A DNA stretch of 64,000 nt. Source: Arthrobacter sp. ok362. GTDB lineage: Bacteria > Actinomycetota > Actinomycetes > Actinomycetales > Micrococcaceae. Of this stretch, positions 1,700 to 54,074 are shown piece after piece (positions within the stretch are counted from its first letter, which is position 1; each line of letters opens with the position of its first letter). The position numbers and the translations under genes were made by a program. The stretch lies in the NCBI RefSeq assembly GCF_900102785.1, contig NZ_FNGC01000009.1, forward strand, positions 62,001 to 126,000, given 5' to 3'. Below the pieces are notes generated by a model. It was not told where the DNA came from. It made no database searches and was given only the letters and a program-made list of their open reading frames with translations.

Positions 1700-2011
1700 A
1701 TGCCCACCCGTCCGCACCAGTCCTCCGAGGAGCAGATACAGCGGTGGACGGAACGCCGGACGATGGTCGGGGCGCGAATACGAGAGCTGCGACTGGAACA
1801 GGCACTCTCCCAGGAAGCGTTGGCACTGGAGTCCGGGTTGAGCCGGAACATGATCATAGGGATCGAGTGGGGCCGGAAGAGCGTGGCTTACGAGCGACTT
1901 TGGGATATCGCGGACGTTCTCGATGTTCCAGTGAGCCAGCTTCTGCTCCCACCAGATTCCGCCGCAACGATTTCCCCGTACCGAGGCGGTCGGCGACCCA
2001 TGGGCGGGTAG
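1700..2011 (+). CDS. XRE-family helix-turn-helix transcriptional regulator
   Basis: A 103-residue protein with a Cro/C1-type HTH at about residues 24-80 (GARIRELRLEQALSQEALAL, SGLSRNMIIGIEWG, LWDIADVLDVPVSQLLL). The order of five helices and the conserved Q/S positions fit the XRE family well. The N-terminal 20 residues are polar and the C-terminus is short, so it is essentially a free-standing DNA-binding domain. It lies divergent from the HNH gene with a palindromic site between them, which suggests autoregulation and control of its neighbour. Confidence 0.85.
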   Translation: MPTRPHQSSEEQIQRWTERRTMVGARIRELRLEQALSQEALALESGLSRNMIIGIEWGRKSVAYERLWDIADVLDVPVSQLLLPPDSAATISPYRGGRRPMGG

Positions 2012-2418
2012 CCCGCAGGGGAAACCAGGAAGAGCGCCCACGTACAGGCCCCAATAGCCACCGCAAGGGCCCCGGAACTTTGGCATCCGTTGTGGCGTCC
2101 GTTATCTGGAATGATTAAGTGGCTTCAGCTTGCGCGTGGTCGTTCAGACCGGACATCGGCATCAGGACACGTGATTGCTCCGGTTAGCCCCTGCCGGGCG
2201 CCCCCGCCGCGCCGGACCGCTGCACCCCGCGACGTCGTGGCGATCCGCAGTTGTGGCGGCCCGGAGCCGCTACCGCGTCCTACGGTGATCTCGCCGGACG
2301 TCCCTGCCGACCTGTAGGCAGCCTGGCCGGGGGTTTCCCGTCCTGGCCTTCGGGCTCTGGACCCTTGAACGGCCAGCTCATTCACTTCGTTGTCAGCGGC
2401 GGCTGTTAGGGTCCGGGC
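2012..2418. other. Intergenic, no gene seen
   Basis: High-GC sequence with open frames on both strands but no ribosome site, domain or codon pattern I can support. A -10-like TAGGGT at 2406-2411 lies 7 bases before the ATG at 2419, which suggests a leaderless or short-leader transcript for the nuclease gene. Confidence 0.4.
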
Positions 2419-3312
2419 ATGGATGAACTGTTGCTGGGACCGGGCTCCGCTGCTGCACGCGATCTGTCGGGCCGGTCCGGTTTCGACACCGCCTTCCTCG
2501 GCGTGCCGGTGCCCGTTCCGACCCTGGCAGGGGTCGAGACGGTCCTTCTGCCCTACACACATTTCTCGGTGCTCATGCGGCCGGACGAACGTCTGGCCGC
2601 GGTGACGGCCCTGGGGATTGACGGGGCGAAGCTGATGGACCTGGACCGTTCCGGCATCCGGTGGCGGCTCGATCCCCCGCTGGGCGAAGACCAGCAGACC
2701 TGCGAGAGGGTCTACGCCCGCAACGACATTGACCGCGGTCACCTGGTCCGCCGGGCCTCAGCCGTCTGGGGCGAGACCCGGGACGAGGCAGCCCGCGCCA
2801 ACGAGGACACCTTCCACTACACGAACGCCGCGCCCCAGGCGGCAACCTTCAACCAGGGCCTGAGCCTCTGGCTCGGACTGGAAACCTACCTGCAGGACAA
2901 CGCAGCCGACAACGGCCGGCGGCTCGTCGTGTTCACGGGCCCGATCTTCAGCGACACCGACCCCGCCTACCGGAGCGTAAACATCCCGCTGCAGTTCTTC
3001 AAGGTCGCCGTTTTCCTCCACCACGGGGACCTCGCCGCAACCGGCTACATCGTGGACAGACACCCGAGCTCGCGAACCTGCCCGACGTTCCGCGGCCCGG
3101 CGCCATCGACGAGGCTCCCCCGCTCGGCCCGTTCCGCACCTTCCAGGTCCCCGTCCGAGACATTGCCGCCCTGACAGGCCTGAACCTGGACCAGCTCGTA
3201 GCCCCAGACCGGATGCCAATCTCCCGCGCGCTGACCACCGCACCAGTCACCTCCACCTGGAGACCGCTGAACTCGCCGCTGGACCTCGATCTGGACTTCG
3301 GCCTCAACGACA
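2419..3312 (+). pseudogene. DNA/RNA non-specific endonuclease (NUC1 type), frameshifted
   Basis: The first ~205 residues match the beta-beta-alpha metal endonuclease family (Serratia NucA/NUC1): the DRGH motif with its catalytic histidine (NDIDRGHLVRR), the metal-binding asparagine stretch (FHYTNAAPQ) and the later GPIF strand. At about 3050-3060 the frame changes: after GYIVD the expected continuation (QTPELANLPDV, VPVRDIAALTGLNL, LDLDLDFGL) is found in the next frame. Restoring one C after GTGGAC repairs the reading. The in-frame product of 251 residues therefore ends in an arginine/serine-rich junk tail. It is either a recent pseudogene or a sequencing indel. The natural stop is not obvious because the second frame runs on into the next gene. 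Confidence 0.75.
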
Positions 3313-3530
3313 GGGACTGCCCCCCGACCTGGCCTAACTTCCGGCACCGAAGCCACCCCGGAAGGCAGGCCCCGACGGTGGCAAAAACAACAGTTTGGGC
3401 ACGGCAAAGCCCTGCAACGGCCGGCCCACACCAGACCGGGCCACCGGCCGCATCAGCGGACCGCCATAAGCAGTGCCCAAGGGCCGGGTGCACGCCCGAC
3501 TTGCGGGGAGGGCCGTGGCAGGATGGGCCC

Positions 3531-4187
3531 ATGGACAGGCTGTTGCGGCGCGCCCCGGACGCCGAATGGGTGCTGATGTACCGGCTCGGACTGAGCCGGC
3601 AACGCATCGCTGCCCTCGTCCGCGCCGAGCCCGCCGCCGTCGGATACCACCTGGCCATCGCCCGCCGCCAAGACCCCGGGCTCGAGGCCGAGCACCAGGC
3701 CGCCTCCGCCGCCGCACCCGTGCCGTTCCCCTCCCCCACGGATCTCGCCCGAATGGAAGAGGTCGTCGCCTGGGCCTTGGCCGAAGGCCGGCTGCCTGAA
3801 GGCCGTTCCGGCAACCGGGGCGAAAGGTCGATGGCGCGGTGGCTGTCCGAACGCCGGCGCGAAGCAGCCGAAGGCACCCTGGACCCGGCCTACAGCTCCG
3901 GTCTCTCCCGGGTACCGGGGTGGCTCGAAAACCGCAGGGAAGTTGAGGATGAAGCCCGCTGGCACCATCGCCTCGCCCAGCTCGTGGACTTCCGCGAGGA
4001 AGGCCAGGACTGGCCACGCCACCACGATTATGAGTCAGAGCGCGAACACACTCTCGGAGTCTGGATCCACACCCAGCGCTTCAAACGGCGCCGCGGCGAG
4101 CTCGACTCTGTGAAGGTCAAGCTTTTGGACGCCGCCGCTCCCGGATGGCAGACGGGGAGGACCCGAGGCCGCCCTCGCCGGCAGTAA
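3531..4187 (+). CDS. Helicase-associated (HA) domain protein, copy 1
   Basis: 218 residues from the ATG at 3531; the open frame reaches further upstream, but that part belongs to the shifted end of the nuclease. The front has a helix-turn-helix (YRLGLSRQRIAALVRAEPAAVGYHL). The rear resembles helicase-associated repeats (ARWHHRLAQLVDFREEGQDWP, EREHTLGVWIHTQRFKRRRGEL), which are three-helix nucleic-acid-binding units with conserved W and K/R positions. A close paralogue sits at 26305-26955. Both genes share the motif GTGGCAGGATG just upstream, probably a -10 region of a short-leader promoter. The role is unknown; DNA binding in a mobile element is the likely job. Confidence 0.65.
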   Translation: MDRLLRRAPDAEWVLMYRLGLSRQRIAALVRAEPAAVGYHLAIARRQDPGLEAEHQAASAAAPVPFPSPTDLARMEEVVAWALAEGRLPEGRSGNRGERSMARWLSERRREAAEGTLDPAYSSGLSRVPGWLENRREVEDEARWHHRLAQLVDFREEGQDWPRHHDYESEREHTLGVWIHTQRFKRRRGELDSVKVKLLDAAAPGWQTGRTRGRPRRQ

Positions 4188-4483: not shown

Positions 4484-4795
4484 CTAAATGCCGAGGTGCC
4501 CCCTGATCGCCTTGATATCCTTGTTGCTCTTGGAAATCCGACGAGCTATGTCAAGTACAGCCCGCATGATTTCATCCAATCGAGCGGATTCTCCTTCAAA
4601 GCTTGTGGGACCAGGTGGTGGTGGTGGTGGCGGTTGTGGAGGAACACCACCAGGTGAGCCGCCATCGTCTAATTCTGTTTCGAATTGAAACGTGCGGATG
4701 ATATCGATCAGTTCCTGAGGGCGATTATCCAGATCCAACACAGGTCCATACTTGGCAATAACTCGCTTCACAAGTTCTTCTTCGCCTGCCATCAT
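4484..4795 (-). CDS. Small protein with polyproline tract, candidate substrate of the P4H/GT pair
   Basis: 103 residues, third gene of a three-gene operon, 71 bp after the hydroxylase. The ribosome site AGGGGA lies just before the first ATG; a second ATG follows directly. Layout: a predicted helical, charged N-terminus (about 3-40), an acidic/glycine linker, a proline run PPQPPPPPPPGP at 52-63, then an amphipathic helix (about 70-100, ARLDEIMRAVLDIARRIS). No signal peptide, cysteine or enzyme motif. A polyproline segment next to a prolyl 4-hydroxylase and a hydroxyproline-type GlcNAc transferase makes this the obvious candidate target; that link is an inference from context. The family is unknown to me. 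Confidence 0.65.
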   Translation of the reverse strand: MMAGEEELVKRVIAKYGPVLDLDNRPQELIDIIRTFQFETELDDGGSPGGVPPQPPPPPPPGPTSFEGESARLDEIMRAVLDIARRISKSNKDIKAIRGHLGI

Positions 4796-4866
4796 TTGTC
4801 CCCTGAGAAGGCGTCCCTCCCACGGGGGCGCGAGGGCCCTAGCCTACTCCCGCAGCATTGCACCGT

Positions 4867-5469
4867 CTACGTTCTGATTGGGCGCTGTCTTGACCACGTT
4901 GTCAGCACCAGTTTGCGTCCTCGGTGCACGGGGGTAGCGGCGTGCCTGAATCTGTCGTCGGTGGTTCCGTCCGGACGCAGATTATTCCACACCACCAATT
5001 TCCCCGCCGTAGGTGGAATCAGCAGGTCCAGTTCCGGAAAGTACGTTTCCCCACCCTGCTTCGGCCCTTGTAGGTACAGCAGGAATGTCAGCGCCCTCTC
5101 GCCGGCGGCCTCACCACCAAAAAGTCCACCGTCATGGTGCAGCTCGAACTTTCCACCGTTGCGGTACCGGATCGCCTGCCATAACTCCAAATAGGACGGC
5201 TCGGTATCGAACAGGCCACAGACCCGGTTTTCGATTTTGACTAGGTGGGCCATCAACTCCGGGCCGAACCAGCCTTGATCGGCGCTGACACTCTGGCGCT
5301 TGTTACTGGTAAAGCTGACCAGGGAGTCGCCTTCGCCCTTGTCAACGACCTTGCTCTCCCGCCAGAGGCTAAATTTGAGTTCCTCGACGATCTTTCGGCA
5401 TCGCTTCGAGGAAAGAAAACACTCCTCCCAGCCGATTCCATTGAGAGCAACGTCCTGGACTAGACTCAT
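4867..5469 (-). CDS. 2-oxoglutarate/Fe(II)-dependent prolyl 4-hydroxylase
   Basis: 200 residues, the size of a bacterial P4H catalytic domain. The iron ligands are visible as HHD at 111-113 (H111, D113) and H176 (RHAATPV), with K186 (RKLVLT) as the expected 2-oxoglutarate contact ten residues later. The strand GGETYFPEL and the TAGKLVVWNN stretch are also typical. The reaction is hydroxylation of peptidyl proline using O2 and 2-oxoglutarate; no signal peptide, so it should act in the cytoplasm. Its start overlaps the stop of the glycosyltransferase gene (ATGA, 5466-5469), so the two are translationally coupled. The nearby polyproline protein is the probable substrate. Confidence 0.85.
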   Translation of the reverse strand: MSLVQDVALNGIGWEECFLSSKRCRKIVEELKFSLWRESKVVDKGEGDSLVSFTSNKRQSVSADQGWFGPELMAHLVKIENRVCGLFDTEPSYLELWQAIRYRNGGKFELHHDGGLFGGEAAGERALTFLLYLQGPKQGGETYFPELDLLIPPTAGKLVVWNNLRPDGTTDDRFRHAATPVHRGRKLVLTTWSRQRPIRT

Positions 5470-6392
5470 CGGGGCTCCACCAGTTGATGCATGATAAATG
5501 CTTCATAATCGCCAACACTGCGCTGGCAGCCCACAAGGCGCCGGCGGTGCGGCGACTCGGTAAACAGTGCACGCAACTGGTCCAGGGAGTCTTGGTTGAC
5601 CTGTCTCCACTCGGGGTGGGTCTCCCAGTGTGGCTGGCGTGTCGCCCGGCTGTAGGCGTGCCAGCCGATGATCCGGTGCGGATGGAACATGTCCCAACCA
5701 TGCGTATAGGCGCGCATGCTGGTGGCTACCTCGTCCCCAAAAAAATAAATGTCCGGATCGAATGCGATCTCTCTATTGAACTCCGCGCGGGCAAAAATAA
5801 AGTGCAGCGAAAGATACTCAGCCGAAACTGGCTGGTCAAGCGCCTGCCAATTGTAAATGGGATAACTGATTAGTCGAGTGAGAATCCCCTGGTCCCGCTT
5901 CCAAGGATAGATCTTGGAAGCATCCCGACGCCTCGCCCGGGACCCTCCGCCCGGAATGTAGGACGGCAGATAGGCCGTTAAAAGCGGTTTGCTAACCCCC
6001 GCTCTTTGAAGACTGGCATGCATATGAAGCGCCAGCTCATCCCATCCTCGAGAGAATCGATGATGGGAATCCAGTAATAACGTGAATTCCTCGCCTCCGG
6101 CTTCAGCCTGGATTAGATGCCTTGCCCAATTCGGTCCACGGCTGAGCTGGTACGGCGACTCCAGTATCGTTAAGTTCGGCAGCTCGTACACATCGCGGGG
6201 GAGCTTGTCCTCGGGGGCCTTCTGCCAAAGAACGACGGTGCGCAGGCGTTCCGGATGCTCCGCCATGCGATAGAGATTCACCAGGGTACGACCCAACTCG
6301 TTGTCACGGTAGGCCGGAATCTGAACAAAAATCCGCGCGCTCCCCGGAGGGATCCCCCTGTCCATAACCGGGATGATAGCAGCACACTCCAC
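5466..6392 (-). CDS. GT60/Skp1-type (hydroxyproline) GlcNAc-transferase
   Basis: 308 residues. It shows the hallmarks of the GlcNAc family (Pfam GlcNAc, CAZy GT60), typified by Dictyostelium Gnt1, which adds GlcNAc to hydroxyproline of Skp1: FVQIPAYRDNEL at the start, the DxD-like LLLDSHHRFSRGWD (D108-S109-H110), and GDEVATSMRAYTHGWD at 219-234. The start is uncertain: the first codon is GTG at 6392 without a ribosome site; ATG at 6365 is preceded by TATCAT and could be a leaderless start. It leads the operon, overlapping the prolyl hydroxylase by 4 bp. Hydroxylation followed by sugar addition on the same prolines is the natural reading; donor sugar and acceptor are inferred. Confidence 0.82.
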   Translation of the reverse strand: MECAAIIPVMDRGIPPGSARIFVQIPAYRDNELGRTLVNLYRMAEHPERLRTVVLWQKAPEDKLPRDVYELPNLTILESPYQLSRGPNWARHLIQAEAGGEEFTLLLDSHHRFSRGWDELALHMHASLQRAGVSKPLLTAYLPSYIPGGGSRARRRDASKIYPWKRDQGILTRLISYPIYNWQALDQPVSAEYLSLHFIFARAEFNREIAFDPDIYFFGDEVATSMRAYTHGWDMFHPHRIIGWHAYSRATRQPHWETHPEWRQVNQDSLDQLRALFTESPHRRRLVGCQRSVGDYEAFIMHQLVEPR

Positions 6393-6949: not shown

Positions 6950-9900
6950 TCAATGGATGACCGGTGGGTGCTTCGCTTGTGCTGGCGCGGAGCGTGCGCT
7001 GCTGAAAGTCCGGTTCCCGTCGAACCAGGCCACCGCCTCGGCGATGAATGTGTCCCCCTGAGCCGCGCCTGCCCACGAGAAGGCGCCTCCGCTCTGCAAG
7101 CTGGTGGTCTTCCACTCGGCGGCGTGATCGCCGAATTGAACACGTACGCGTACCCTTCCGCCGCCTGGGTCCGGGGCCACGACGCCGGAGAAAACCACGT
7201 TGTTCGCACCGTCCCAGGTACCGCTCAACGTGGCCTGTGTGCGTTGGCGTGGACGGATCTCGTACTCGACACCACCCCAGCGGGCAGAGCTTTCTGGGTC
7301 CTGACGCCAGGCGTGGATGCGGAAGCGCTGGTCGTTCGCGCAGCCGGACTCGATGACGGCATCATCGAGTTCTAGTAAACAGTGGAACCTTACGGTTGAC
7401 CGGGCGGGAATAGTTTGTATCGGCGGAGTAATGGTGAGGGTCATACCCGCAGGGAGACCGTCTGGCTCGAGGTAGGCCACTTCCGGACCCACGCCCTCGT
7501 TGCGCACACTGAAGTCGAATTCGGTTGGAGCGTAGGGGCTGTTCTTGGTTGCCTCGAACTTATCGACGTTCTTCTGCGCGTGGTTGTTGGCGATCCATAC
7601 GTCGTCAGAGCCAAGCGCAGCGCCTGATGAATCCTCGGGGATGCGGTAGTCCTCTATCTGCACCAGCAAGCAGGTGTGGCCACTGAATCCCGCCGGCACA
7701 TCCCAATTCTGCAGGACCAGCTGTGCTGCGTTGCCGCCGGGAACCTCCGGTTGTGTCGTCGACCCGATCAGGTGATACGCGGAGAGATTGTTGACCTCCA
7801 TGGGCTTTTGGCCATCCCCGGCGCCGGGTGGCTCGAAGTAGAAGAAATTCAGCTTGACATCGGTCGCTTTAACTTGCCCCCGGTTACGAAGTCGCGCTAC
7901 CATCCAATGCTTTTCGACACCTGTCGGCGGCACATAGACGGTTTGACCCTGGTCGGTGGGTTGACCGAGGCCATAGGTAGGGGTCAGGTCGCGCGGTGTC
8001 GGCTTGTTGTCGCCCGGCCAATCCACCCACAGATCCGGGTTCTTGTAGTAGACGGGCGGATTTTCGAAATAAAGGTCGACGAACTCCGCGTTCTTCCGGG
8101 TTACCTTAATCCGGTACACATTGGCGTCGCCCTCGACGAGCTTGGTGTCGAGGACTTCGACGGTCATGCCCTTGACGGGAAGCTCAGGCGCGCGCGCCAA
8201 GTCGAAGCTGTCACCAGCGTTGTGCAGCACGTTGGCGGGGTTGAGCCATTGCACCGGGCGCCGGTAGAAGTTGTTAGTGGCGAAGCGCTGGTCCAGTGTC
8301 CAGGAGATGCAGTTGGTTATCAGCACACCGCCGCCGGGCGCTGGCAAGTTGTGGCTGAACCGGGCGCCGCGTTGGTGGGCCTCGATGAGGCCGAAGGTGG
8401 CGCCGTCGCCGCCGAAGTCGATGTATCCCAGCTGCACGACGGGTGTATTGGCCCCTACCGCGAAGGCAGCACGCGCAGATGCGACCAGGCTGTCGCGCCA
8501 CACCTCAAGCGGCACCAGTAGCAGCTCCCAGGTGCGGGTCCGGTCTGCGTCGGGAAGCCCGAGGGGAAATACTCTGGCATAGTCGGCCTCGGTGCTGGCG
8601 CCGTCGGGAATCCAGCGAGACTGTAGTTTGTGATAGCCGCAGTGATGCGGCTCGCCGGGATGGTTATCCATCATGGCCCAGTCGCCGAGGTAGCTCAGCT
8701 CGTCGCGGTACCCTTCTTGGAAGTAAAGGTCGGCGTAGCCGAGGGCGTGGCCGACTTCGTGGATGATCATCGGGGTGTCTGGAACTCCGCTCGGCATGAA
8801 GATCGCCGCCCATGCGCATTGGGCCTGTACCTTCTTGTCGGTCTTGTCGACGACAGTGGTGATGTCTTCGGCGCCACGGAGGTCGAACGGACGGAACAGT
8901 GCGGTGACATTCCACAGCTCGGAGGGCAGGACCGCGTTGGGGTCGAAAGGGTTGGGGGCCCCCGGTTCGACCGGTAGCACCAGGATAGCGGTGTAGTCCT
9001 TGAACGCGTCAGTGGGGCGTCCGTTGTCTCGCAGCCGTTGCACTGCCGCGCTGAACGCGTCCTCGTAGAGCTGACCGCGGTCGCGCAGCGATCGCTTGAG
9101 GTTCTTCGTCGTGGCGCTGTTGGGAACGGTTTTGCTTGTGGTGAAAAGCGATTCAAGGCCAGAGCTGGACTTGAGATTGACGGTGGCACCGGGACCGCCG
9201 AAGCGATCAGAGATCGCGAACGAAGTCGTCAGCGCGCCGCCGGTGAAGGCTGCACTCGGTGGGCTGAGCCGGCGCTCGTTATAGCCGGCGCCGGCGGCCT
9301 CCTGTGCCAGCAGTGTTGCAACGTCGAGATAGCGTTCCAGCGTAAACGTATTGGTGACCGGGATGGTGCCGCTCAGTGTGCTGGCCAGACCGATCGGGTC
9401 CGCGCCCGCCAGTGTGGCCGAAGATGAGGTGACGGAGAGTTTTCCTCCTACGGTTTTTGTGCCGGCGAACGTGACGACTAGCGCGCCGAATTGCAGTCCG
9501 ACCGCCGCTATCCGCACCACTTTCGGTGCGGCAAACGCTCGGGAGGCGATGCCGGAAACGGTCTCGGCGGCGGCCATTACGCCGTCGAGGTAGCCGGCGA
9601 GGTCGTTGAGCTTGGCGGTGACCTGACCGTCGTCTGCGATGTCAATCGTCTTGGCCGTGAACACCAACGTAACGGTTTTTGACATGCCATCGGGAAGTTT
9701 GACTTCAAACTGAAGTTTCTCGGTGCCGACGAACTTGATTTGCGCCGGGTACAGATCGATGTCGCGTCGGAAGCCGATCGCGAAGAACGGCACGGTCAGC
9801 GTCTTGGCCGGCAGGCCTCCGGTAAGCGGCGCAGATTCCAGTACGAGGCTTTCACGCCCGTCGAACTGCACGGTTTCGGTGCCGGTCAGACTTGGGCGGA

Positions 9901-11437
9901 TCAAGTCGACGCGGGCCGGATCGTAATCGGGGAAATAGTAGTCGGCGACCTTGTGCCTAGGCAGCTTCAGCGGTCTCCCCGTGGGCCCGGCGTTCCCGCC
10001 GAAGACGTCGACGCTGACGTCTGTGAGCTGGCCGAAAGAGTTCTCGTCGTAGTAGTCGCGCAGCCGGGGCCCCACGGTGCGCGTCATGTATGCGGTGAAC
10101 CCGGCCAGATCCGGTGAGCTGTATGTCTGGTCGCCTTCGATCACCGGCAGGATAAGCGCCTTGATCTTGGTCGGTGCGCTGGGCTGGCCGTACGACATCA
10201 CGTGGGTTTCGCTGCCGTAGAACGTCTTTGATTCGATCGGGACGAATACGGGACGCTTCAACTCGGGGCGCAACCGGGTGGCGGCGGCGTGCACGTCGGT
10301 GAAGCTCCACCGCTCGGTGCTGCCGCGCAGGCTCAGCATGACCGCTGAATCCGGCGCCGCGGCGACGTGGATGCCGTGGCGTCCGCCCGACCACTCGAAG
10401 AGAAGGTTCATGTCGTCGGAGAGCAGTGACATGGTGTGGGCGCCGGCATCGGCGGCAAGGTAGTAGGCGCCCACGCGGCGAAGCGTGTCGACAGTGTAGA
10501 GAAGACTGCGCCCGCAGGGGCCCTTCCCGATCCCATTCGGAGGGTGGTGGTCGACGCGGGCGCCGTCACCGGTGACCACGCCGCCCTGCGGCGTCTCCAC
10601 GGCGACGTCGCCGGTGCCAGGCTGACGGCCCGGATGCCCGCCGGGGGTCCCAACCGACGGTTGGCCACTCGGCTCACCTTGCCCGACACCCCCCGGGTGC
10701 GCTGGCCGGCTGCAGACCGGAACGCATGAGTAGCAGCCACCGCCCTTTGGGCGATTGTCCCCCTCTTGGCAACTGCATGGCGTCCCGCGCTGGTGGACGG
10801 ACACCGACTGCCACGGCGTTGCGTCGCGGTCTTCGCTCAAAGCGGCAGATAGAACCTTCGTCGCGCGTGCGCGACGGTCTGTGAGCAGGACTCCTCCCTG
10901 TTGGCGTGGTTCGAGTCGAACCTGGCTGTGCTCGAGCGAGGTTCGAGCGAGAGTCTTGCGTTCGCGCAGACCGATTCGCAAGAGAACTGGAAAATGAGCC
11001 TCCTCGACGATATACGCGTCGGCGCCAGTGGCGGCCAAATGTGTTATTGGGTTAGCTGCGTCGTAGACGACTACCTGACGCTCGCCGTCGGTCAACAGCA
11101 GCAGGGTACTTGCGTGGTCGTGTGCGACCGCGACGACTGGGCCTAGTGCGCTATCGGCGATCGCCGTGATCTCACCGGACAGCTCGTGATCGAATGCGCG
11201 ACGCGCCAGTATGGCAGGGCCGCTGGCGGTGAGCTGGTAGATCGTTAGGCGTGTCCCGTCGGATATGGCAACTCGCCTGCCAGCTTCGAGGAGGGTTAGC
11301 TGGACACCGACGCCCAGTGCCGTGGGTAGACCAATCACCTCACCCGATGCGCTCGGAGCTTCGCGATCCTGCGCGTCGCTGTCTGGTTCGCCAGTGCCAT
11401 GTGGATGCCCGCTAGCCGAATCACCATTAAGAATCAC
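6950..11437 (-). CDS. Giant beta-propeller/M6-like zinc metalloprotease-domain protein
   Basis: About 1,495 residues from the GTG at 11437, preceded by GAGGGGGG at good distance; the frame is open 19 codons further up. The first ~400 residues look like beta-propeller blades (repeated VxxAVAHDHAS, LLLLTDGERQVVVYD), interrupted at about 225-330 by a Cys/Gly/Pro-rich insert (CSCQEGDNRPKGGGCYSC). The centre carries HEVGHALGYADLY (H893, E894, H897), a gluzincin-like zinc site followed by DLY as in M6 (immune inhibitor A) peptidases. The C-terminal third is a set of beta-sandwich-like segments. No signal peptide is visible at either start. It stands alone on its strand. Function (proteolysis, probably of an external or target-cell protein) is inferred from the zinc motif only. 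Confidence 0.75.
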   Translation of the reverse strand: MILNGDSASGHPHGTGEPDSDAQDREAPSASGEVIGLPTALGVGVQLTLLEAGRRVAISDGTRLTIYQLTASGPAILARRAFDHELSGEITAIADSALGPVVAVAHDHASTLLLLTDGERQVVVYDAANPITHLAATGADAYIVEEAHFPVLLRIGLRERKTLARTSLEHSQVRLEPRQQGGVLLTDRRARATKVLSAALSEDRDATPWQSVSVHQRGTPCSCQEGDNRPKGGGCYSCVPVCSRPAHPGGVGQGEPSGQPSVGTPGGHPGRQPGTGDVAVETPQGGVVTGDGARVDHHPPNGIGKGPCGRSLLYTVDTLRRVGAYYLAADAGAHTMSLLSDDMNLLFEWSGGRHGIHVAAAPDSAVMLSLRGSTERWSFTDVHAAATRLRPELKRPVFVPIESKTFYGSETHVMSYGQPSAPTKIKALILPVIEGDQTYSSPDLAGFTAYMTRTVGPRLRDYYDENSFGQLTDVSVDVFGGNAGPTGRPLKLPRHKVADYYFPDYDPARVDLIRPSLTGTETVQFDGRESLVLESAPLTGGLPAKTLTVPFFAIGFRRDIDLYPAQIKFVGTEKLQFEVKLPDGMSKTVTLVFTAKTIDIADDGQVTAKLNDLAGYLDGVMAAAETVSGIASRAFAAPKVVRIAAVGLQFGALVVTFAGTKTVGGKLSVTSSSATLAGADPIGLASTLSGTIPVTNTFTLERYLDVATLLAQEAAGAGYNERRLSPPSAAFTGGALTTSFAISDRFGGPGATVNLKSSSGLESLFTTSKTVPNSATTKNLKRSLRDRGQLYEDAFSAAVQRLRDNGRPTDAFKDYTAILVLPVEPGAPNPFDPNAVLPSELWNVTALFRPFDLRGAEDITTVVDKTDKKVQAQCAWAAIFMPSGVPDTPMIIHEVGHALGYADLYFQEGYRDELSYLGDWAMMDNHPGEPHHCGYHKLQSRWIPDGASTEADYARVFPLGLPDADRTRTWELLLVPLEVWRDSLVASARAAFAVGANTPVVQLGYIDFGGDGATFGLIEAHQRGARFSHNLPAPGGGVLITNCISWTLDQRFATNNFYRRPVQWLNPANVLHNAGDSFDLARAPELPVKGMTVEVLDTKLVEGDANVYRIKVTRKNAEFVDLYFENPPVYYKNPDLWVDWPGDNKPTPRDLTPTYGLGQPTDQGQTVYVPPTGVEKHWMVARLRNRGQVKATDVKLNFFYFEPPGAGDGQKPMEVNNLSAYHLIGSTTQPEVPGGNAAQLVLQNWDVPAGFSGHTCLLVQIEDYRIPEDSSGAALGSDDVWIANNHAQKNVDKFEATKNSPYAPTEFDFSVRNEGVGPEVAYLEPDGLPAGMTLTITPPIQTIPARSTVRFHCLLELDDAVIESGCANDQRFRIHAWRQDPESSARWGGVEYEIRPRQRTQATLSGTWDGANNVVFSGVVAPDPGGGRVRVRVQFGDHAAEWKTTSLQSGGAFSWAGAAQGDTFIAEAVAWFDGNRTFSSARSAPAQAKHPPVIH

Positions 11438-11739
11438 TACGGCCCCCCTCGCCTTTATGTGAATCACAGCTAGCGAGCTAGCGGTGCCCAACACGAGAAT
11501 CGTTCGGCGGAAACGGGCCGGCTACGGGAGGCAGCTACTCGAATCTGTCGGATCGGCACCAGGCCCGCTTCCGATGGCATTACCGCCAATGTGACGAGTG
11601 GGAGATGTCAACCGGGACTATCGTTTCACGCGAATGCCGATTGTCAATGCCCATCCCACGGCACCCAGAGCGGCGAACTGGATATTCATGGCCCCTGTCG
11701 AAGTGCAGCCCCCAGGCGCAGCCATATCGCCATCCTGGC
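11438..11739. other. Intergenic, no gene seen
   Basis: Contains the upstream region of the metalloprotease gene (minus strand) and degraded sequence before the broken IYDNP-family gene. No ribosome site or intact frame that I can support. Confidence 0.35.
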
Positions 11740-19892: not shown

Positions 19893-20984
19893 CTACTGGG
19901 GAAGTTGGCCGCGTCTCAGGAGAGCCCGGCCGGCAACCATCGTCGAATGTATCTCTTGAGCGGTGGTCGGAACCGATCCCTCGCCTCTACGCCGGACGAT
20001 ACTGATGAATGCCCCGTCCACTTTTCCGTCGATTATGGCCCCAGAAACCAGGAAGGGCTTCAGCTCCTCGGGCTGGGGAGGGATGTCCACCAGAATGATC
20101 TCTGAACCTGGACCGCCCTCAACTGCGCTAATCCGAAGGTCCCGAACCAGCGGAAACAACCGGTTTTCCAGCACTTGGTGGTACTTGCGAACAATGCCGG
20201 GCCTAACGGGCATTGGATTCAGTTGGCGGATATGCTCCCCTGCCGCTGTCTTCTTTGTCGTCATACCAACCACGACGATTCCACCGTCCTCGCTGTTGCA
20301 AAAGCGGGAAACGGCTTGAGCGAGTGAGATCTGGCCGGTGGCCGTCGCAAGGTCGTAATGCTGACTCTTTGCCTCAAGCCAATGTCCTTCGGGCTGACCG
20401 ATCAGCACATCAGCACGTCCGGCACGCACCAGACTTCCAGCTGTCTCTCGGGTTGGATCTCCGCCGGCAAGCGCCTGCATAAGATCGAACAGATCCTGGC
20501 CGGCTCTAAACAACGCCGCCAATTTGCGTCCCGTGAGCTTGAACCCCAGCCGGACGTTCCAAATTCTGGCTACGCCTTCATAGTCCTCCTCATCGATGGA
20601 AAGAAGGGCCGCTCGATGCCGCGCCAGCAAGGGTTGCATAGCCGCGACCATGCGCCCTTCATCTGCTTCTTCCTCTGCATCCGGGAATTCCTCTACGAAC
20701 GTGAACGAGACGGTGAGGGCCCCTTCCTCCAGCTCAAACACAACTGGTTCGACGGGAATACCTTCCATACCGATGTATCGCTCATCAATATCTGAGACGT
20801 GAACTTGCTCCGGCCCTCCTACTTCCTCCGCCCGCCGCAGAGCCCATTGCAGGTCCGTGGCGGTGCATAGATCGAGGTCTGAACGATGGATGATGAGCAG
20901 GTCTGTATGCCTGTCGTAGCTTCTGTCTTTGCCAGCAAAGATCCAGTCGCGATAATCGCTGAAAGAAACGGTTCTGGTGGTCAC
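19893..20984 (-). CDS. AlbA_2/Schlafen-like DNA-binding domain protein
   Basis: 363 residues. The central-C-terminal part carries the AlbA_2 (divergent AAA-4, Schlafen core) signature: HWLEAKSQHYDL (E204, K206), ISLAQAVSRFCNSEDGGIVVVGM (about 219-241), then RPGIVRKYHQVLENRLFPLV and EIILVDIPPQ. The N-terminal 180 residues are acidic and unrecognised. Its GTG start overlaps the stop of the resolvase gene (GTGA, 20981-20984), so it depends on resolvase translation. AlbA_2 proteins occur as regulators and in defence islands; here the tight pairing with a recombinase suggests a mobile-element accessory or defence role. Confidence 0.7.
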   Translation of the reverse strand: MTTRTVSFSDYRDWIFAGKDRSYDRHTDLLIIHRSDLDLCTATDLQWALRRAEEVGGPEQVHVSDIDERYIGMEGIPVEPVVFELEEGALTVSFTFVEEFPDAEEEADEGRMVAAMQPLLARHRAALLSIDEEDYEGVARIWNVRLGFKLTGRKLAALFRAGQDLFDLMQALAGGDPTRETAGSLVRAGRADVLIGQPEGHWLEAKSQHYDLATATGQISLAQAVSRFCNSEDGGIVVVGMTTKKTAAGEHIRQLNPMPVRPGIVRKYHQVLENRLFPLVRDLRISAVEGGPGSEIILVDIPPQPEELKPFLVSGAIIDGKVDGAFISIVRRRGEGSVPTTAQEIHSTMVAGRALLRRGQLPQ

Positions 20985-21583
20985 TGCCGTTCACCAACCG
21001 TTTCGGACGTCATAGTCCGGGGACCAAGGGTCCGCACAACGGTCGAGAGACTAACATCCAACGCGGCCGCAATTTCCTGCAGCGTTTTCTCCTGGGTACG
21101 AAGGTGATGCGCCGCTTCTTCCTTCGCCGGCGTCATGGCTCGGGGGCGCCCCCCTTTTCTGCCTCTGGCCCGTGCTGCAGCCAATCCGGCCCGAGTGCGT
21201 TCGGACAGTCGTGACCGCTCGTACTCAGCAAGCGCAGCGAACATATTAAAGATGAGCTGCCCGTGTGCGGTTGTTGTGTCCAGCCAAGGTTCAGCTAGGG
21301 ATCGAAAGCCGACCCCCATCTCCCCCAGTATGGCCACGATCGACGAGAGGTCCGCGGTGCTCCGCCCCAGCCTCGTAAGGTCGGTTACAACCAGGACGTT
21401 GCCTGGTTGGAGATGGTCGAGACATGCCTGCCATCGCGGCCGGGCCTGCGATACACCAGAGGCGTGCTCTTGGAAGACCTTGACGGCGCCGGCTCCGACC
21501 AAGGCATCGACTTGGGAGATCACTGACTGGTCCTTGGTGCTCACTCTGGCATAGCCAATAACATTGCCTGGCGGCTGCGACAC
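20981..21583 (-). CDS. Serine recombinase (resolvase/invertase family), copy 1
   Basis: 200 residues from GTG 21583 with AGAGGG upstream. The catalytic N-terminus is intact: VIGYARVSTKDQS with the nucleophilic serine, LVVTDLTRLGRST, then the long E-helix (LIFNMFAALAEYERSRLSERT) and a C-terminal HTH (TLQEIAAALDVSLSTVVRTL). Size and layout match Tn3-type resolvases and invertases. It precedes and overlaps the AlbA_2 gene. Repeated GTCAAAAAC/GTTTTTGAC half-sites upstream are likely its crossover site. Confidence 0.9.
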   Translation of the reverse strand: MSQPPGNVIGYARVSTKDQSVISQVDALVGAGAVKVFQEHASGVSQARPRWQACLDHLQPGNVLVVTDLTRLGRSTADLSSIVAILGEMGVGFRSLAEPWLDTTTAHGQLIFNMFAALAEYERSRLSERTRAGLAAARARGRKGGRPRAMTPAKEEAAHHLRTQEKTLQEIAAALDVSLSTVVRTLGPRTMTSETVGERQ

Positions 21584-24483: not shown

Positions 24484-25803
24484 TTATTCGGTGTCGGCGG
24501 TGTGCTTGTCGAGGATGATTTTTTCGACGGCGCTGGCGGTGTAACCCCAAGCGGTGAGCTGGTTCAGGTAGTCGAAGTGTCGCTTCTCGGCGGACCGCCA
24601 AGAGTCTTTCTGGATGGTCTCCTCGTACCCGGCGCAGATCAGTGCGATCAGGGAGAACTCGGGGCGGGAGGTGGTTTTGGCGGTGTGGTCCCGGAGCGGG
24701 TTCCAGCCCCACCGGTCGGTGTCCTCCCCGGTCTTGGCTCCGATCATTTCGGTGGCGACCTTGCCGTCGTAGCCGCTGGCCGTTTCGGAGTGGTGGGTGA
24801 TGGCGTGGACGGTGAAGTACTGCCAGCCCTTCGGCGCGGTCTTCCGCGAGAGCACGGTTTTCACGAACTCGCGCCTAACCTTGGTCGCGCTTTCCATCTC
24901 GCGGTTGTTCGTGATCAGGGTCTTCCGCTCGGCTTTCTGGTCCTCGGTCATCGGGCCTTTCTCGGACTGGGTGCCCCCGTCGTAACGGGCGTAGCGCGTC
25001 GTGAAGCCCAGGTCTTTCCAGCCGGTGATGACGGGGTTGGCGGTGTGCTGGCCCCGGTAATCGGTGCTGATCTTGTAGGCGTTGGCATCCTCGTCGGTGG
25101 CCGGTTCCCCGTCGGCACGCTTGGCGGAGCTGACGTACAGGTTCTCGTCGTCGTCGTAGTACCCGGCGTCCTCCACGATGGTCTTGCCTGCCGCCCCAAG
25201 CTCGGCAACGAGCGCGGCACGTGCGGCCTCGCTGGCCCGGCGGTCGTGCAGGAGCGGGGCGACGTGCAGGAGCTGGTCGGCTTCGTCCGCGATCACGGAC
25301 TCCAGTTCCTCGGTCGCTTCCTCATCGCCCTCAAACTCGGCCATGATAAGCGCTTCATCGATGGTGTACCCCTTGCCCAGGGCGGCGGCTCCGGCGTCGG
25401 AGGCTTTGGCCTTCAGTGCACCCTCGACCGTGGTTTTGGTCCGGCCGGTCTTCTTGGCGATCGCGGCGGCCGAGACACCGATCAGGGACAGCTGGTGGTA
25501 GGCGTCGGCTTCGTCCGCTTCGGTCAGCTCGGCCCGCTGGATGTTCTCCACAACCTGGGTCACGGTGCGTTCGGCTTCCTCGGGGGATTCGATGATCATC
25601 ACCGGAATCTGGGGCCGGGCGGCTTCGACGGCGGCGCGGGTGCGGCGCTGTCCCATCAGGACATGGACGGTGCCGTCTTCTTTGCGGTGGGCGATCACTG
25701 GTTCCATGACGCCGTGTTCTTTGATGCTGGCGATGAAGTCCGGGGTCAGGGCCGCGTCTTTGCGGACGTTGATGTCGACGGTCAGGGTGGCGGGGTCGAG
25801 CAT
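24484..25803 (-). CDS. ParB/RepB/Spo0J-type partition protein, probable 5' frameshift
   Basis: 439 residues from ATG 25803. The ParB N-terminal domain is clear: INVRKDAALTPDFIASIKEHG, VHVLMGQRRTRAAVEAA, then the HTH (LSLIGVSAAAIAKKTGRTKTTVEGAL). The rest is a long family-specific C-terminal half. The ATG at 25803 has no ribosome site, whereas AAAGGAG precedes the ATG at 25828 in another frame; deleting one base of the five-C run (plus-strand G 25813-25817) would join that start to MLDPATL. So either a one-base error or a real frameshift affects the start. ParB-like proteins of this type are plasmid or phage borne; no ParA is present here. Confidence 0.75.
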   Translation of the reverse strand: MLDPATLTVDINVRKDAALTPDFIASIKEHGVMEPVIAHRKEDGTVHVLMGQRRTRAAVEAARPQIPVMIIESPEEAERTVTQVVENIQRAELTEADEADAYHQLSLIGVSAAAIAKKTGRTKTTVEGALKAKASDAGAAALGKGYTIDEALIMAEFEGDEEATEELESVIADEADQLLHVAPLLHDRRASEAARAALVAELGAAGKTIVEDAGYYDDDENLYVSSAKRADGEPATDEDANAYKISTDYRGQHTANPVITGWKDLGFTTRYARYDGGTQSEKGPMTEDQKAERKTLITNNREMESATKVRREFVKTVLSRKTAPKGWQYFTVHAITHHSETASGYDGKVATEMIGAKTGEDTDRWGWNPLRDHTAKTTSRPEFSLIALICAGYEETIQKDSWRSAEKRHFDYLNQLTAWGYTASAVEKIILDKHTADTE

Positions 25804-25828: not shown

Positions 25829-26304
25829 GGTGTTGCTCCTTTTGCAGAGGATTCCGGTGGGTGGGGTGCGGTTGGTCACCGGCCAGCTCCCCTCCCCCGT
25901 TGTTTTTTGGCTGCTGGCGGAGCTTGCGGAGCTGTGCCCGACGGAGGCCTGTCTACCCACAGGCTCAAGGGGCAGGGGGTGTCCGAAGGAAATAAGCGCC
26001 GAAGGAGCGCCGCAGGGACATTACCTGCACCGCAGGCCCCGACGAAGGAGGGGCTAGACGGGCCGGAGCGGGCACGTACGATCCGAAGGACAGCAGCCAA
26101 AAACGTCGAAGACGTAAACAACAGGGCCAGGGATCCCGGAGCTCTGCGACGGAAGCACTGGACCCAACAGCCGGCCGCGCCAGCGGACGCCCGATAACTG
26201 GTTGGAGCGCAGCGGAAACCAGGCAGAACCAGTTGGCAGCACCGGTGCTGCGCCACGGCTGGGGCCCCGCTGGGCCAGCCCTCCGTGGCAGGATGAGCCT
26301 CATC
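25829..26304. other. Intergenic, no gene seen
   Basis: About 475 bp between the divergent ParB-like and HA-domain genes. Contains the ParB ribosome site (AAAGGAG on the minus strand, about 25836-25843) and, at 26285-26298, the motif GTGGCAGGATGAGC shared with the other HA-domain gene. No protein-like frame. Confidence 0.4.
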
Positions 26305-26955
26305 ATGGACAAACGTCTACGGCGCGCTCCTGACGCGGAATGGGTACTGATGTACCGGCTCGGATTGAGCCGGCAACGCATCGCTGAGTTGGTGCGCGCC
26401 GAACCCGCTACCGTCGGCTACCACCTGGTCATCGCCCGCCGCCAGGACCCCGGACTCGAGCCCGCACACCAGGCTGCCACGGTGACCCAGACCGGGCCCT
26501 CCCCCGCGGACCTTGCCCGGATGGACGAGGTCATCGCCTGGATCATGGCCCAGGGCCGGTTCCCCCGTGACCGCTCCGGGGACAAGGAGGAACGGTCGAT
26601 GGCCCGGTGGCTGTCCGATCGCCGGCGCGAAGCAGCCAAGGGCACCTTGTCCCCGGCCTACAGGGACGGCCTGGCCCGGGTCCCGGAGTGGGCCGGCAAT
26701 CCCAGGGCAGCGGCCGATGAGGCCAGGTGGCATGACCGGCTCGCCCAGCTGGCGGACTTCCGCGCCGAAGGCAACGACTGGCCCCGCCACCAGCAGGCTG
26801 ACTCGGAGCGCGAACACACTCTCGGGGTGTGGATCCACGTCCAGCGGCAAAAGCACCGCCGCGGCGGGCTCGACGCCGAAAAGCTCAGGCTCCTGGACTG
26901 TGCCGCACCCGGTTGGCGGACCGGAAGGACCCGGGGCCGCCCGCTCCGGCAATAG
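26305..26955 (+). CDS. Helicase-associated (HA) domain protein, copy 2
   Basis: 216 residues from ATG 26305; an in-frame ATG at 26293 would add four residues. It is a close paralogue of the gene at 3531-4187, with the same HTH (LGLSRQRIAELVRAEPATVGYHL) and the same tandem HA-like repeats (ARWHDRLAQLADFRAEGNDWP, EREHTLGVWIHVQRQKHRRGGL). The two differ mainly in the linker near residues 50-70. The shared upstream motif indicates that promoter and gene were copied together. Likely nucleic-acid binding; role unknown. Confidence 0.65.
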   Translation: MDKRLRRAPDAEWVLMYRLGLSRQRIAELVRAEPATVGYHLVIARRQDPGLEPAHQAATVTQTGPSPADLARMDEVIAWIMAQGRFPRDRSGDKEERSMARWLSDRRREAAKGTLSPAYRDGLARVPEWAGNPRAAADEARWHDRLAQLADFRAEGNDWPRHQQADSEREHTLGVWIHVQRQKHRRGGLDAEKLRLLDCAAPGWRTGRTRGRPLRQ

Positions 26956-29386: not shown

Positions 29387-29977
29387 GTGACTGCACTGAA
29401 AATCGGATACGCGCGCGTCTCCACGAACGGCCAAGACCTCACCGCCCAACGCGAAGGCCTCATTGCACTCGGCGTCGACCCCGAGAACATCCACGTCGAC
29501 CACGGACTCACCGGCACCAACAGGACCCGACCAGGTCTCCGCGAAACGATGGCCGCGGTGCGTTCCGGTGACACTCTTGTCGTCACCAAACTCGACCGCC
29601 TGGCACGCTCTCTTCCAGACGCCCGCGATATCGCTGACGAACTAACACGGAAGGGCGTTGCGCTTAGCCTTGGCGGATCGATTTACGATCCCGCCGATCC
29701 CGTGGGCCGGCTGCTGTTCAACGTCCTTGGCATGGTCGCAGAGTTCGAGGCCGATCTGATCCGGATGCGAACCCGCGAGGGGATGGCGATCGCGAAAGCC
29801 AAGGGCAAGCTCCGCGGGAAGCAACCCAAACTTACCGCCGCCAAACGTCGCCACCTACTCGCCGTCCACGCTGCCGGCACCCACACCCAAACGGAGCTGG
29901 CAGAACTCTTCGACGTCTCCCGCGCCACCATCTACCGTGAGCTCCAGCGCGCGCAACCAAGGGACGTTCTGAGCTGA
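29387..29977 (+). CDS. Serine recombinase (resolvase family), copy 2
   Basis: 196 residues from GTG 29387. Intact catalytic domain: KIGYARVSTNGQDL with the nucleophile serine, VVTKLDRLARS, and GRLLFNVLGMVAEFEADLIRMRTREG, then a C-terminal HTH (HTQTELAELFDVSRATIYREL). Typical resolvase length. It lies between the HEPN gene and the 3' end of the restriction operon and only about 30-40% similar by eye to copy 1, so the copies came from different elements. Confidence 0.9.
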   Translation: MTALKIGYARVSTNGQDLTAQREGLIALGVDPENIHVDHGLTGTNRTRPGLRETMAAVRSGDTLVVTKLDRLARSLPDARDIADELTRKGVALSLGGSIYDPADPVGRLLFNVLGMVAEFEADLIRMRTREGMAIAKAKGKLRGKQPKLTAAKRRHLLAVHAAGTHTQTELAELFDVSRATIYRELQRAQPRDVLS

Positions 29978-34140: not shown

Positions 34141-35630
34141 TTGGTCCCGCCCGCAAGCAACTCTTGGATATCGTCTAGTGCGACGTCGGCCGCGGCGGAA
34201 GCCGAGCGCCATGCCGCGACTGCATCGGCGACGCTTAGAGAGTCCGCCTCTCCGGCGGCCGCTCGTGCTACTGGGACGTATGCGGGGATAGCGAGCGTGT
34301 GCCCCTTGGACCTGATTTCGTCGAGGCAGGAGACGGCGGCAAAGCCGAGTTCAGGCGAGAAGTGCCGGTAGGCGTCGAGGATCCTCGTCTGGTGCGCATC
34401 GCTCAGGAACGACTGAACCCCCTCGCGGAAATATTCGTTCTTGGCGTTGATGAAGAGCACCTGGCCTTGGCGCTCAACGGGTTTGTTGGCGTTGAGCACG
34501 AGGACGATCGCTTCCATGCCCGAGTTGTAGAACAGCCCGTGTGCGAGCCCGATGACCGCCTCGACCAGGTCAGATTCAATCATCGCGCGACGTACCTCAG
34601 CCTCGGCTAGGCGGTGAAGGATGCCGTGAGGAAGCAGGACAGCGGCACGACCGGTCTTGGGGTCCAGGCTCTTGGTGATGTGTTGGATGAAGGCGTAGTC
34701 CGCAGCGTTCTGGGGCGGAACGCCCCAGATGTTCCGACCGTAGGCGTCCCTGGCGAACGCAGCTCGATTCCATGCCCTAATGGAGTAGGGTGGGTTCGCG
34801 AGTACGACGTCGAAGGTCTGCAGGTCACCCTTTGAGTTCAGAAAGTCTGGCCGGGCGAGGGTGTCGCCATGGGCGATGTGGCCGTCGGTGATGCCGTGCA
34901 GGAACAGGTTCATGCGGGCGATAGCGGAGGTCCCGTGGTTGAGCTCCTGGCCGTAGAGGCGTAGGTTCCGCCACTCCTTGCCTTGGCGCTTCATCTCGGC
35001 GGCAGTGGAGATGAGCATTCCGCCGGTGCCACATGTGGGGTCATAGACCGACTCACCCGGCTGAGGTTCCAGCATGAGCGTCATCAGATGGACGAGGGTG
35101 CGGTTGGTGTAGAACTCCTGCGCGGTGTGGCCGGAGTCGTCGGCGAACTTCTTGATGAGGTACTCGTAACCGTTGCCGAGCTCGTCCTCCGGCAGATTGG
35201 CGATCGAGAGCGTCTTGCTCGAGAAGTGCTCGATCAGATCCGACAGCGTCGAGTCCGGCAGCAGGTTCTTGTTGCCCCAGTCGCCGTCGCCGAACACGCC
35301 GGGCAGGGTGTCGGGGTTGGCGGATTCGATGGCGCGCATGGCCTTGAGAACCGTGGAGCCGATGTCGCTGGTGACAGCGCGAATGTCGTCCCAGTGGCAA
35401 CCGCCGGGGATGGCGAAGCGGTGGTTCTCGGGGAGGTCTGCAAGCAGCTCGTCGCCGTAGATCTCCATGGCGGCGGCGTGCTCCTCGTCGTACACGTCCG
35501 AGATCCGCTTCAGGAAGACAAGCGGGAAGATGTACTGCTTGTAGTCGCCGGCATCGATGAGGCCGCGCAGCACGGTGGCGGCGCCCCATAGATAGTTCTC
35601 CAGCTCATGTTGGGTGATGCGGCTACTCAT
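34137..35630 (-). CDS. hsdM: Type I DNA adenine methylase, second HsdM
   Basis: 497 residues from ATG 35630, overlapping the stop of the other hsdM (ATGA). The N-terminal HsdM helical domain is followed by the methylase: VYDPTCGTGGM (CGTGG 200-204, SAM binding) and VVLANPPYS (NPPY 279-282, catalysis). The usual (G)EFxTPR motif before the SAM site reads QEFYTNR here. It is roughly 45% similar by eye to the adjacent HsdM. Two different HsdM subunits with one HsdS suggest a mixed M1M2S enzyme, in which each could serve one half-site. Confidence 0.92.
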   Translation of the reverse strand: MSSRITQHELENYLWGAATVLRGLIDAGDYKQYIFPLVFLKRISDVYDEEHAAAMEIYGDELLADLPENHRFAIPGGCHWDDIRAVTSDIGSTVLKAMRAIESANPDTLPGVFGDGDWGNKNLLPDSTLSDLIEHFSSKTLSIANLPEDELGNGYEYLIKKFADDSGHTAQEFYTNRTLVHLMTLMLEPQPGESVYDPTCGTGGMLISTAAEMKRQGKEWRNLRLYGQELNHGTSAIARMNLFLHGITDGHIAHGDTLARPDFLNSKGDLQTFDVVLANPPYSIRAWNRAAFARDAYGRNIWGVPPQNAADYAFIQHITKSLDPKTGRAAVLLPHGILHRLAEAEVRRAMIESDLVEAVIGLAHGLFYNSGMEAIVLVLNANKPVERQGQVLFINAKNEYFREGVQSFLSDAHQTRILDAYRHFSPELGFAAVSCLDEIRSKGHTLAIPAYVPVARAAAGEADSLSVADAVAAWRSASAAADVALDDIQELLAGGTK

Positions 35631-53762: not shown

Positions 53763-53838
53763 TGGTGGCTCCGACCGGCGTCGATCCGGTGACCTTTCGA
53801 TTTTCAGTCGAACGCTCTACCAACTGAGCTACAGAGCC
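53763..53838 (-). tRNA. tRNA-Phe (GAA)
   Basis: 76 nt including an encoded CCA. Acceptor GGCTCTG/CGGAGCC, D-loop AGCTCAGTTGGTAGAGC, anticodon loop ACTGAAAAT with anticodon GAA, and T-loop GGATCGACGCC are all in place. Last gene of the Glu-Asp-Phe cluster. Confidence 0.96.
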
Positions 53839-53886
53839 TAGGTGACATGCCACCTTGACGGCCGAAATTTCTTCCGGCAATCAGAG

Positions 53887-53960: not shown

Positions 53961-54074
53961 TTGCTTGTTTATTGCTTGTACTGCGCATTCTTGCTGCTTG
54001 CGGTATCGCTACCGCAAATTTTCAAGGCCTTTAGCCTACCAGACTTTTCCATCCGGTTTGACCAGTTCCTTGCG

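Follow-up and report, generated by a model that had tools for sequence, protein, structure and literature searches.

A conserved bacterial gene trio of a prolyl 4-hydroxylase, a GT60 glycosyltransferase and a small proline-rich protein as a candidate hydroxyproline-O-glycosylation cassette

We describe a three-gene cassette in a 64,000-nt stretch of the genome of Arthrobacter sp. ok362 (assembly GCF_900102785.1, contig NZ_FNGC01000009.1, positions 62,001 to 126,000 of the forward strand; the whole stretch is hereafter called the window), which encodes a GT60-type polypeptide glycosyltransferase, a prolyl 4-hydroxylase (P4H) and a small proline-rich protein. The cassette is real: it is conserved and, within the literature searched, hitherto undescribed, and we infer its chemistry. 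No description of a bacterial P4H plus GT60 cassette was found among the open-access papers listed, as judged by title and start of abstract, most subscription papers lying outside this scope. The established part of the account comprises gene content, conservation and co-inheritance, the catalytic residues and invariant prolines, and the predicted folds. The interpretation that we favour, and consider probable, is a bacterial cassette making a hydroxyproline-linked sugar on one private protein, with linker sites, a docking hairpin and a partner-binding helix. As judged from the genes, the trio may be a variant of hydroxyproline-O-glycosylation with a new private substrate family, and the gene survey described below lends support to the proposal, made in a first-pass annotation of this DNA, that the genes are a self-contained bacterial system that includes its own target.

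In the window the trio runs on the minus strand from 6392 to 4484 in the order GT60, P4H, small gene. The GT60 gene (5466..6392) encodes 308 aa from a GTG codon, its true start being uncertain, with a D108-S-H110 motif, and the P4H gene (4867..5469) encodes 200 aa with an HxD...H...K arrangement; the two share an ATGA stop-start overlap (5466..5469), read from the sequence. The small gene (4484..4795) starts 71 nt past the P4H gene, with AGGGG 4 bases ahead of its ATG, and encodes the 103-aa proposed dedicated substrate, which contains the tract PPQPPPPPPPGP / PPQPPPPPPPGPTS. The first-pass annotation had reported the overlap and the 103-residue proline-tract protein, and all three open reading frames (ORFs) were found in place.

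The trio was recovered at 17 loci (the window and 16 others), always on one strand, in Actinomycetota, Pseudomonadota (Rhizobiales, Caulobacteraceae and Saccharophagus among the named members) and Bacteroidota (Spirosoma). The order GT60, P4H, small gene is kept in 16 of the 17, the small gene preceding GT60 in Kineococcus (L043). GT60 and P4H genes overlap in every trio, by 4 nt in 10 of the 16 non-window cases, and the distance from P4H to the small gene ranges from -31 to 12 nt in all but three loci; the window, L034 and L035 have 71 to 77 nt. These overlaps and spacings depend on the start codons chosen in this analysis. Among 248 genomes of the window's order, PF11397 was found in three, and each of these has the trio. 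A scan of genome contigs with their three GT60s as query gave 23 loci, 14 of them with P4H and small gene (L034-L046 and L048; two already known, L034 = L012 and L043 = L013). Eight (L049-L056, two being contigs of less than 7 kb) had no P4H or small gene beside the GT60, save for a weak opposite-strand P4H match in L055. The remaining locus, L047, is a decayed copy. Genome searches with a small-protein profile added two further trios, L072 and L073, from genomes sampled in the Mycolicibacterium and Spirosoma families. The profile matched 4 of 251 genomes in the former family and 2 of 150 in the latter. In the class to which the SZAS-4 genome belongs it matched 2 of 240, one of them a weak false match; the remaining seven matches all sit in trios.

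Sixteen genomes, 15 with a trio and that of L047, were searched for the small gene, and exactly one was present in each of the 15. At L047 (Rhizobium lusitanum, about 8870-9640) the cassette has decayed jointly: the broken P4H has an in-frame stop and, in place of its C-terminal part, unrelated sequence that resembles an insertion, and no match to the small gene remains anywhere in the genome. For the close small-gene pair L036/L037 the ratio of nonsynonymous to synonymous divergence (dN/dS) is near 0.1 (dN 0.094, dS 0.964). With homologues next to a GT60 and a P4H at 16 other loci, and with dN/dS near 0.1, the small ORF is more than a chance reading frame. A survey for trios with the small gene conserved beside the enzymes had been posed in the first-pass annotation as a test by which its proposal could fail; the outcome, 17 loci, one GT60 clade and one small gene per searched genome, is in its favour.

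Used as a single query against 295 genomes of its own family, the window small protein returned its own gene and three weak partial matches, which suggests that the window genome either gained the trio from elsewhere or kept what its relatives lost; this search is only suggestive because a single-sequence query can miss distant relatives. The same protein returned nothing in a single-sequence scan of genome contigs or in a plasmid search, and the small-protein family was reached only via GT60. In a viral scan with a three-sequence small-protein alignment none of 600 pattern matches was confirmed. Four loci with weak partial proline-rich matches (L003-L005, L074) were dropped, and three weak partial matches to the GT60 profile (L022-L024) were left out.

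Phylogenetic analysis places the trio GT60s together. In a GT60 tree of 42 rows (3 duplicates; L033, L054 and the second GT60 of L053 dropped owing to stops or lengths below 240 aa), the 17 trio GT60s and that of the decayed L047 form one branch of 18 rows (support 100/99), and all 24 other rows fall outside it. Identity to the window GT60 does not cleanly separate the clade (L046 37.8%, L025 37.0%, L055 36.9%). Two forks of the tree, one joining Caulobacteraceae to Spirosoma and the other joining the SZAS-4 genome to Actinomycetota, are not well supported; transfer of the trio as a unit across three phyla is likely on these gene data.

GT60s outside the trio clade were examined for the other two genes by tblastn. 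Eleven plasmid and phage GT60 records were found, of which seven were searched (L014-L020, one without annotation; plasmid H10 and H11 and phage H2 and H3 are among those left out); no P4H or small gene lay within about 4-5 kb in these seven loci, and no trio was present in the seven records. Searches by tblastn of L025-L033 and L049-L056, several of which are short contigs, gave no P4H or small gene, bar an opposite-strand divergent 2-oxoglutarate (2OG) oxygenase in L055. This oxygenase-like protein (1958-2554, minus strand), encoded in an Ignavibacteria metagenome-assembled genome (MAG), faces a GT60 outside the trio clade and is 29% identical to the window P4H along 95 residues; the two genes are perhaps a second pairing. 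Tandem GT60 matches were seen in two viral contigs and a Burkholderiaceae MAG (L025, L026, L053). Stand-alone GT60 genes (L014, L017, L016) occur at type VI secretion clusters on plasmids of Burkholderia and Paraburkholderia, and in Azospirillum beside DUF4255 and tail-sheath genes; another is located in a phage.

The window GT60 scores 191.8 bits (E 3.1e-56) with PF11397, where the cut-off is 21. D108, S109 and H110, the Asp-x-His motif that we take to have a metal- and nucleotide-binding role, are invariant in 20 of 20 GT60 rows. The AlphaFold2 model (mean predicted local distance difference test score, pLDDT, 92.2) finds its best PDB matches by Foldseek among polypeptide GalNAc-transferases (E 5.5e-11, template modelling (TM) score over the query 0.60), pointing to a GT-A fold like that of these enzymes; a PDB sequence search with the GT60 gave no match.

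The window P4H scores 51.3 bits (E 2.4e-13) with PF13640, where the cut-off is 27, and H111, D113, H176 and K186 are invariant in all 17 P4Hs, HxD...H presumably binding iron and the lysine 2OG. The catalytic residues named in the first-pass annotation (H111, D113 and H176 here, D108 in the GT60) are therefore all among the invariant ones. A profile of the 17 relatives matches nine distinct PDB sequences with E 2.9e-27 to 9.5e-16, eight of them named prolyl 4-hydroxylase or procollagen-proline dioxygenase and the ninth, 3gze, named 'Predicted protein'. Algal, collagen, bacterial and viral P4Hs are matched with E 2.9e-27 to 7e-23, including 2jig at 2.9e-27 (3gze is also algal), collagen P4H subunit alpha-2 at 8.5e-27, and 3itq/5hv0, which we take to be bacterial in origin, at 2.6e-23. 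Because E is 2.9e-27 to 2jig and only 0.079 to Dictyostelium PhyA (6t8m), the hydroxylase is, by sequence comparison, of the collagen/algal P4H type and not of the Skp1 PhyA/PHD type, and the Skp1-pathway identity assumed for it in the first-pass annotation is abandoned. P4Hs of the collagen/algal type act on proline-rich chains, and X-Pro-Gly is the site type of collagen-type P4Hs. Structures 3gze, 5c5t and 6t8m are identified as CrP4H, vCPH and DdPhyA, respectively, in an excerpt of PMC7864055.

Members of the small-protein family are 89-111 aa long. Searches of the window protein against Pfam and NCBIfam gave nothing above the family cut-offs, and PHROGs gave nothing at E 0.001. Its AlphaFold2 model (15 sequences in the input; pLDDT 77.5, predicted TM score 0.33) has helices at residues 2-16 and 27-41, an unstructured stretch, and a helix at 73-101. 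Together with the invariant residues, this divides the gene, on the minus strand, into an N-terminal helical hairpin (residues 2-41; 4673..4792), a disordered Pro/Gly linker (residues 43-65; 4601..4669) with a variable polyproline run, and a long C-terminal helix (residues 73-101; 4493..4579). The last, modelled with mean pLDDT of 85 (71-80), 96 (81-90) and 92 (91-100), is a probable coiled coil; in profile comparison the C-terminal part resembles designed coiled coils and that of GCN4, though weakly (best E 0.0014 and 0.0057). We considered whether the small protein might be Skp1-like and rejected this, there being no Pfam family over cut-off and no sequence named Skp1 among 37 profile-listed PDB sequences.

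Seven residues, G17, L22, P26, I32, P48, G49 and P63, are invariant in the 17 small proteins. P48 (4652-4654) is followed by Gly in every member, as PPG in eight, KPG in three, LPG in three, and SPG, TPG and VPG. P63 (4607-4609), whose alignment is uncertain in L046 and L048, is likewise present in 17 of 17, with Thr64 following in 12 and Ser65 in 14. Summed over the 17 proteins, 114 of 312 linker residues are proline (37%), against 55 of 1325 elsewhere (4%). The polyproline tract, which the first-pass annotation had presented as the target, is not itself a conserved feature, the longest proline run varying from 1 to 10 residues; P48 and P63 are what is conserved instead.

The residues around P63 also bear on a second way in which the enzymes might work. 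They could act independently, P4H hydroxylating a proline and GT60 glycosylating Thr64 or Ser65 of the P-T-S motif. The Trypanosoma cruzi polypeptide GlcNAc-transferase acts on threonine. That enzyme is included in the GT60 family in an excerpt of PMC6939170, and both hydroxy residues are frequent in the small proteins. Their conservation is nonetheless exceeded by that of P48 and P63; the invariance of P63, compared with 12 of 17 for Thr64, makes it likelier that proline, not threonine, is the required acceptor, and we give independent action little credence.

In the cassette that we favour, the P4H, an Fe(II)/2OG- and O2-dependent enzyme, would hydroxylate prolines in the disordered Pro/Gly linker, with the X-Pro-Gly proline P48 as prime target and P63 and any polyproline run as perhaps further ones. 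The GT60 would then put an N-acetylhexosamine (HexNAc), probably N-acetylglucosamine (GlcNAc), onto the hydroxyproline oxygen, as Gnt1 does on Skp1. The N-terminal helical hairpin would dock the enzymes, the C-terminal helix would oligomerise or bind a partner, and the glycan would alter how the small protein links the two. We infer all of the substrate relation, the reaction order, the sugar identity, the docking and the effect of the glycan. The universal P48-Gly, the proline-rich linker and a P4H of the type that acts on such chains support this scheme, as does a GT60 model that folds like polypeptide GalNAc-transferases. Further support comes from the 17 one-strand trios, the single GT60 clade, the one small gene per searched trio genome, the joint decay at L047 and the correlated pairwise distances of the three proteins across the 17 loci (Mantel r 0.857, 0.861 and 0.864; 0 of 9999 permutations as high).

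Several points weigh against it. Activity, modification and binding are all predictions. A part of the Mantel correlation must come from shared ancestry, and an adaptor would be expected to show the same pattern of co-inheritance as a substrate. GT60 genes without P4H and small gene occur in other bacteria and phages, so that GT60 as such does not need the other two. The linker of L073, DGGLPGGVGPVGPTS, holds just 3 prolines, and linkers of this kind leave little to modify in some members; the uncertain P63 alignment in two members counts on the same side.

Upstream of the trio in the window, on the same strand and after a gap of 557 nt, lies a gene for a 1514-aa M6-like peptidase (6950..11494, minus strand), a possible partner of the trio. 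The protein has HEVGHALG at residue 912 and matches TIGR03296 with E 6.6e-10, but with 39.3 bits against a cut-off of 110.8, and has no Pfam match. At 7 of the 17 loci (a raw count) a peptidase-like gene is found no more than two genes away from the trio: M6-like in the window, Neprosin in L036 and L037 (E about 1e-44), FG-GAP with HExxH in L040 and L043, papain-like with BTRD1 repeats in L048, and M43 in L073. The L040 call is under cut-off (M10 E 0.0035 plus HExxH), and that of L043 consists of HExxH and 60% identity to L040 only. Weaker cases are a gamma-glutamyltranspeptidase at L045 and, on the opposite strand at L046, an M64-like protein below its cut-off (E 0.008); an FG-GAP fragment is present at L072, and the upstream esterase of L034, which also matches Peptidase_S9 with 22.4 bits against a cut-off of 22.6, was counted as none. 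No peptidase-like neighbour was seen at L034, L035, L038, L039, L041, L042 and L044 (first neighbours by Pfam; L035 and second neighbours by eye).

Neighbouring genes were called by a custom script, and Pfam was run on 10 picked by eye, on 20 further first neighbours and on the window's two; upstream first neighbours of L035, L043 and L072 were left out of the Pfam run, which took in second neighbours only for L040 and L043. The upstream first neighbour of L043 was matched by tblastn to the HEAT protein of L040. Rhodococcus tukisamuensis and Kineococcus share an FG-GAP protein and a HEAT protein (60% and 45% identity) along with the trio, five genes in all. By eye, no signal peptide is present in the window protein (start uncertain) or in the FG-GAP, Neprosin and papain-like proteins; the M43 and M64-like proteins begin like lipoproteins. 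Neprosin as a fixed fourth gene was rejected, relatives occurring in just 3 of 201 genomes of the family of Mycolicibacterium. Among the matches listed, only G912 of the three Neprosin-bearing genomes (G912, G938, G965) is one of the four with a small gene, G938 having none, and the short loci around the Neprosin genes of G938 and G965 (L076, L077) held no GT60, P4H or small gene. Neprosin relatives also occur without the trio.

These neighbours are the ground for reading the small protein as an adaptor, its hairpin gathering P4H and GT60 and its coiled coil presenting another protein, for example the neighbouring peptidase. The seven loci with a peptidase-like gene, the two weaker cases L045 and L046 and the shared five-gene set are all consistent with such a role; the seven loci at which no such neighbour was seen, and the position of the invariant prolines within the small protein itself, speak against it, and we think an adaptor unlikely. 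The small protein might also be released as a ribosomally synthesised and post-translationally modified peptide (RiPP), with an N-terminal leader, cleavage at DGG, a hydroxylated and glycosylated core, and maturation by the neighbouring peptidase. Its conserved N-terminal part, the Gly-Gly ahead of the linker and the more variable remainder would fit, as would the nearby peptidase-like genes, Neprosin being a post-proline peptidase. A RiPP core is expected to vary, however, and a helix-like C-terminal stretch (predicted as a helix in the window protein) is kept in the 17 aligned proteins; the gene is present in one copy per genome, the peptidases differ in class and are lacking from view at seven loci, and no dedicated peptide exporter was seen among the first neighbours scanned; we consider a released peptide improbable. 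Those neighbours do include an ABC/UvrA-like protein (L044), a LysE-type translocator (L043) and a polysaccharide-synthesis protein (L042).

A bolder form of the favoured hydroxyproline-glycosylation cassette would be a mobile, O2-dependent switch. An algal-type P4H and a GT60, paired independently of the Skp1 pathway of protists, would place a hydroxyproline-linked sugar on the private helix-linker-helix protein, and this glycan would license a co-encoded peptidase, protect from it or target it, the peptidase class being swapped from one lineage to the next. We regard this extension as conceivable, though on the unlikely side.

Other features of the window are recorded here as observations. 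Positions 1-54150 look like a genomic island, with three tRNA genes at 53763-54147 and resolvases at 20981-21583 and 29387-29977, and also an HsdM-type methylase (35627-37183) and a ParB-like protein (24484-25803). A DNA/RNA non-specific endonuclease (2419-3174, plus strand; PF01223 E 3.4e-38) is encoded a little beyond the trio. The protein encoded at 3213-4187 (plus strand) has a Helicase-associated domain (PF03457 E 2.2e-10) and, by eye, a stretch like LRRAPDAEWVLMYRLGLSRQRI in common with that encoded at 26233-26955 (plus strand). On the minus strand at 42691-45954 lies a gene whose domains (DUF4135 E 1.2e-112, LANC_like E 1.4e-48) mark it as coding for a class II lanthipeptide synthetase, LanM.

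If the favoured reading is correct, hydroxyproline-O-glycosylation, described in plants and protists, would gain a minimal, genetically simple bacterial model whose conserved target prolines could be examined singly. Bacterial GT60s and collagen-type P4Hs would also have a defined joint task, GT60 enzymes would be seen to partner P4Hs of two different types, and a route would open to sugar on hydroxyproline in E. coli.

Comparison with known systems shows likenesses and differences in each case. Stand-alone bacterial and phage GT60s are of the PF11397 type, as is the trio GT60, but lie outside its clade. Pseudomonas PPHD, which hydroxylates a prolyl residue of EF-Tu (excerpt of PMC7864055), is likewise a case of bacterial protein prolyl hydroxylation; it differs in being of PHD type and in having EF-Tu as target, and the excerpt mentions no glycosyltransferase. 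In the Skp1 pathway of Dictyostelium and Toxoplasma, Gnt1 belongs to GT60 and needs PhyA (excerpt of PMC6939170). As there, a P4H and a GT60 enzyme are expected to act in turn on one protein in the trio, the likeness of its GT60 to the Gnt1 kind being one of PF11397 family membership only. Unlike the Skp1 system with its PhyA/PHD-type hydroxylase, the trio is bacterial, has an algal/collagen-type P4H and no further sugar-adding gene, and its candidate substrate is an unrelated, operon-encoded protein of 89-111 aa. With the algal and bacterial collagen-type P4Hs (2jig/3gze, 3itq/5hv0) the trio hydroxylase shares sequence family, HxD...H...K and, in its proposed target, the X-Pro-Gly site type; a bacterial P4H acts on (PPG)n peptides (excerpt of PMC8968730). 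The trio P4H differs from these in its fixed partnership with a GT60 and a small protein, and in a proposed target without collagen repeat. The DxH metal motif and a lectin domain are features of GT27, the polypeptide GalNAc-transferases. Like GT27, the trio GT60 has the DxH motif and, in its model, the fold (Foldseek E 5.5e-11); unlike GT27, to which identity is 10-15% among the matches listed, the 308-aa window protein is without lectin domain, and its expected acceptor is hydroxyproline.

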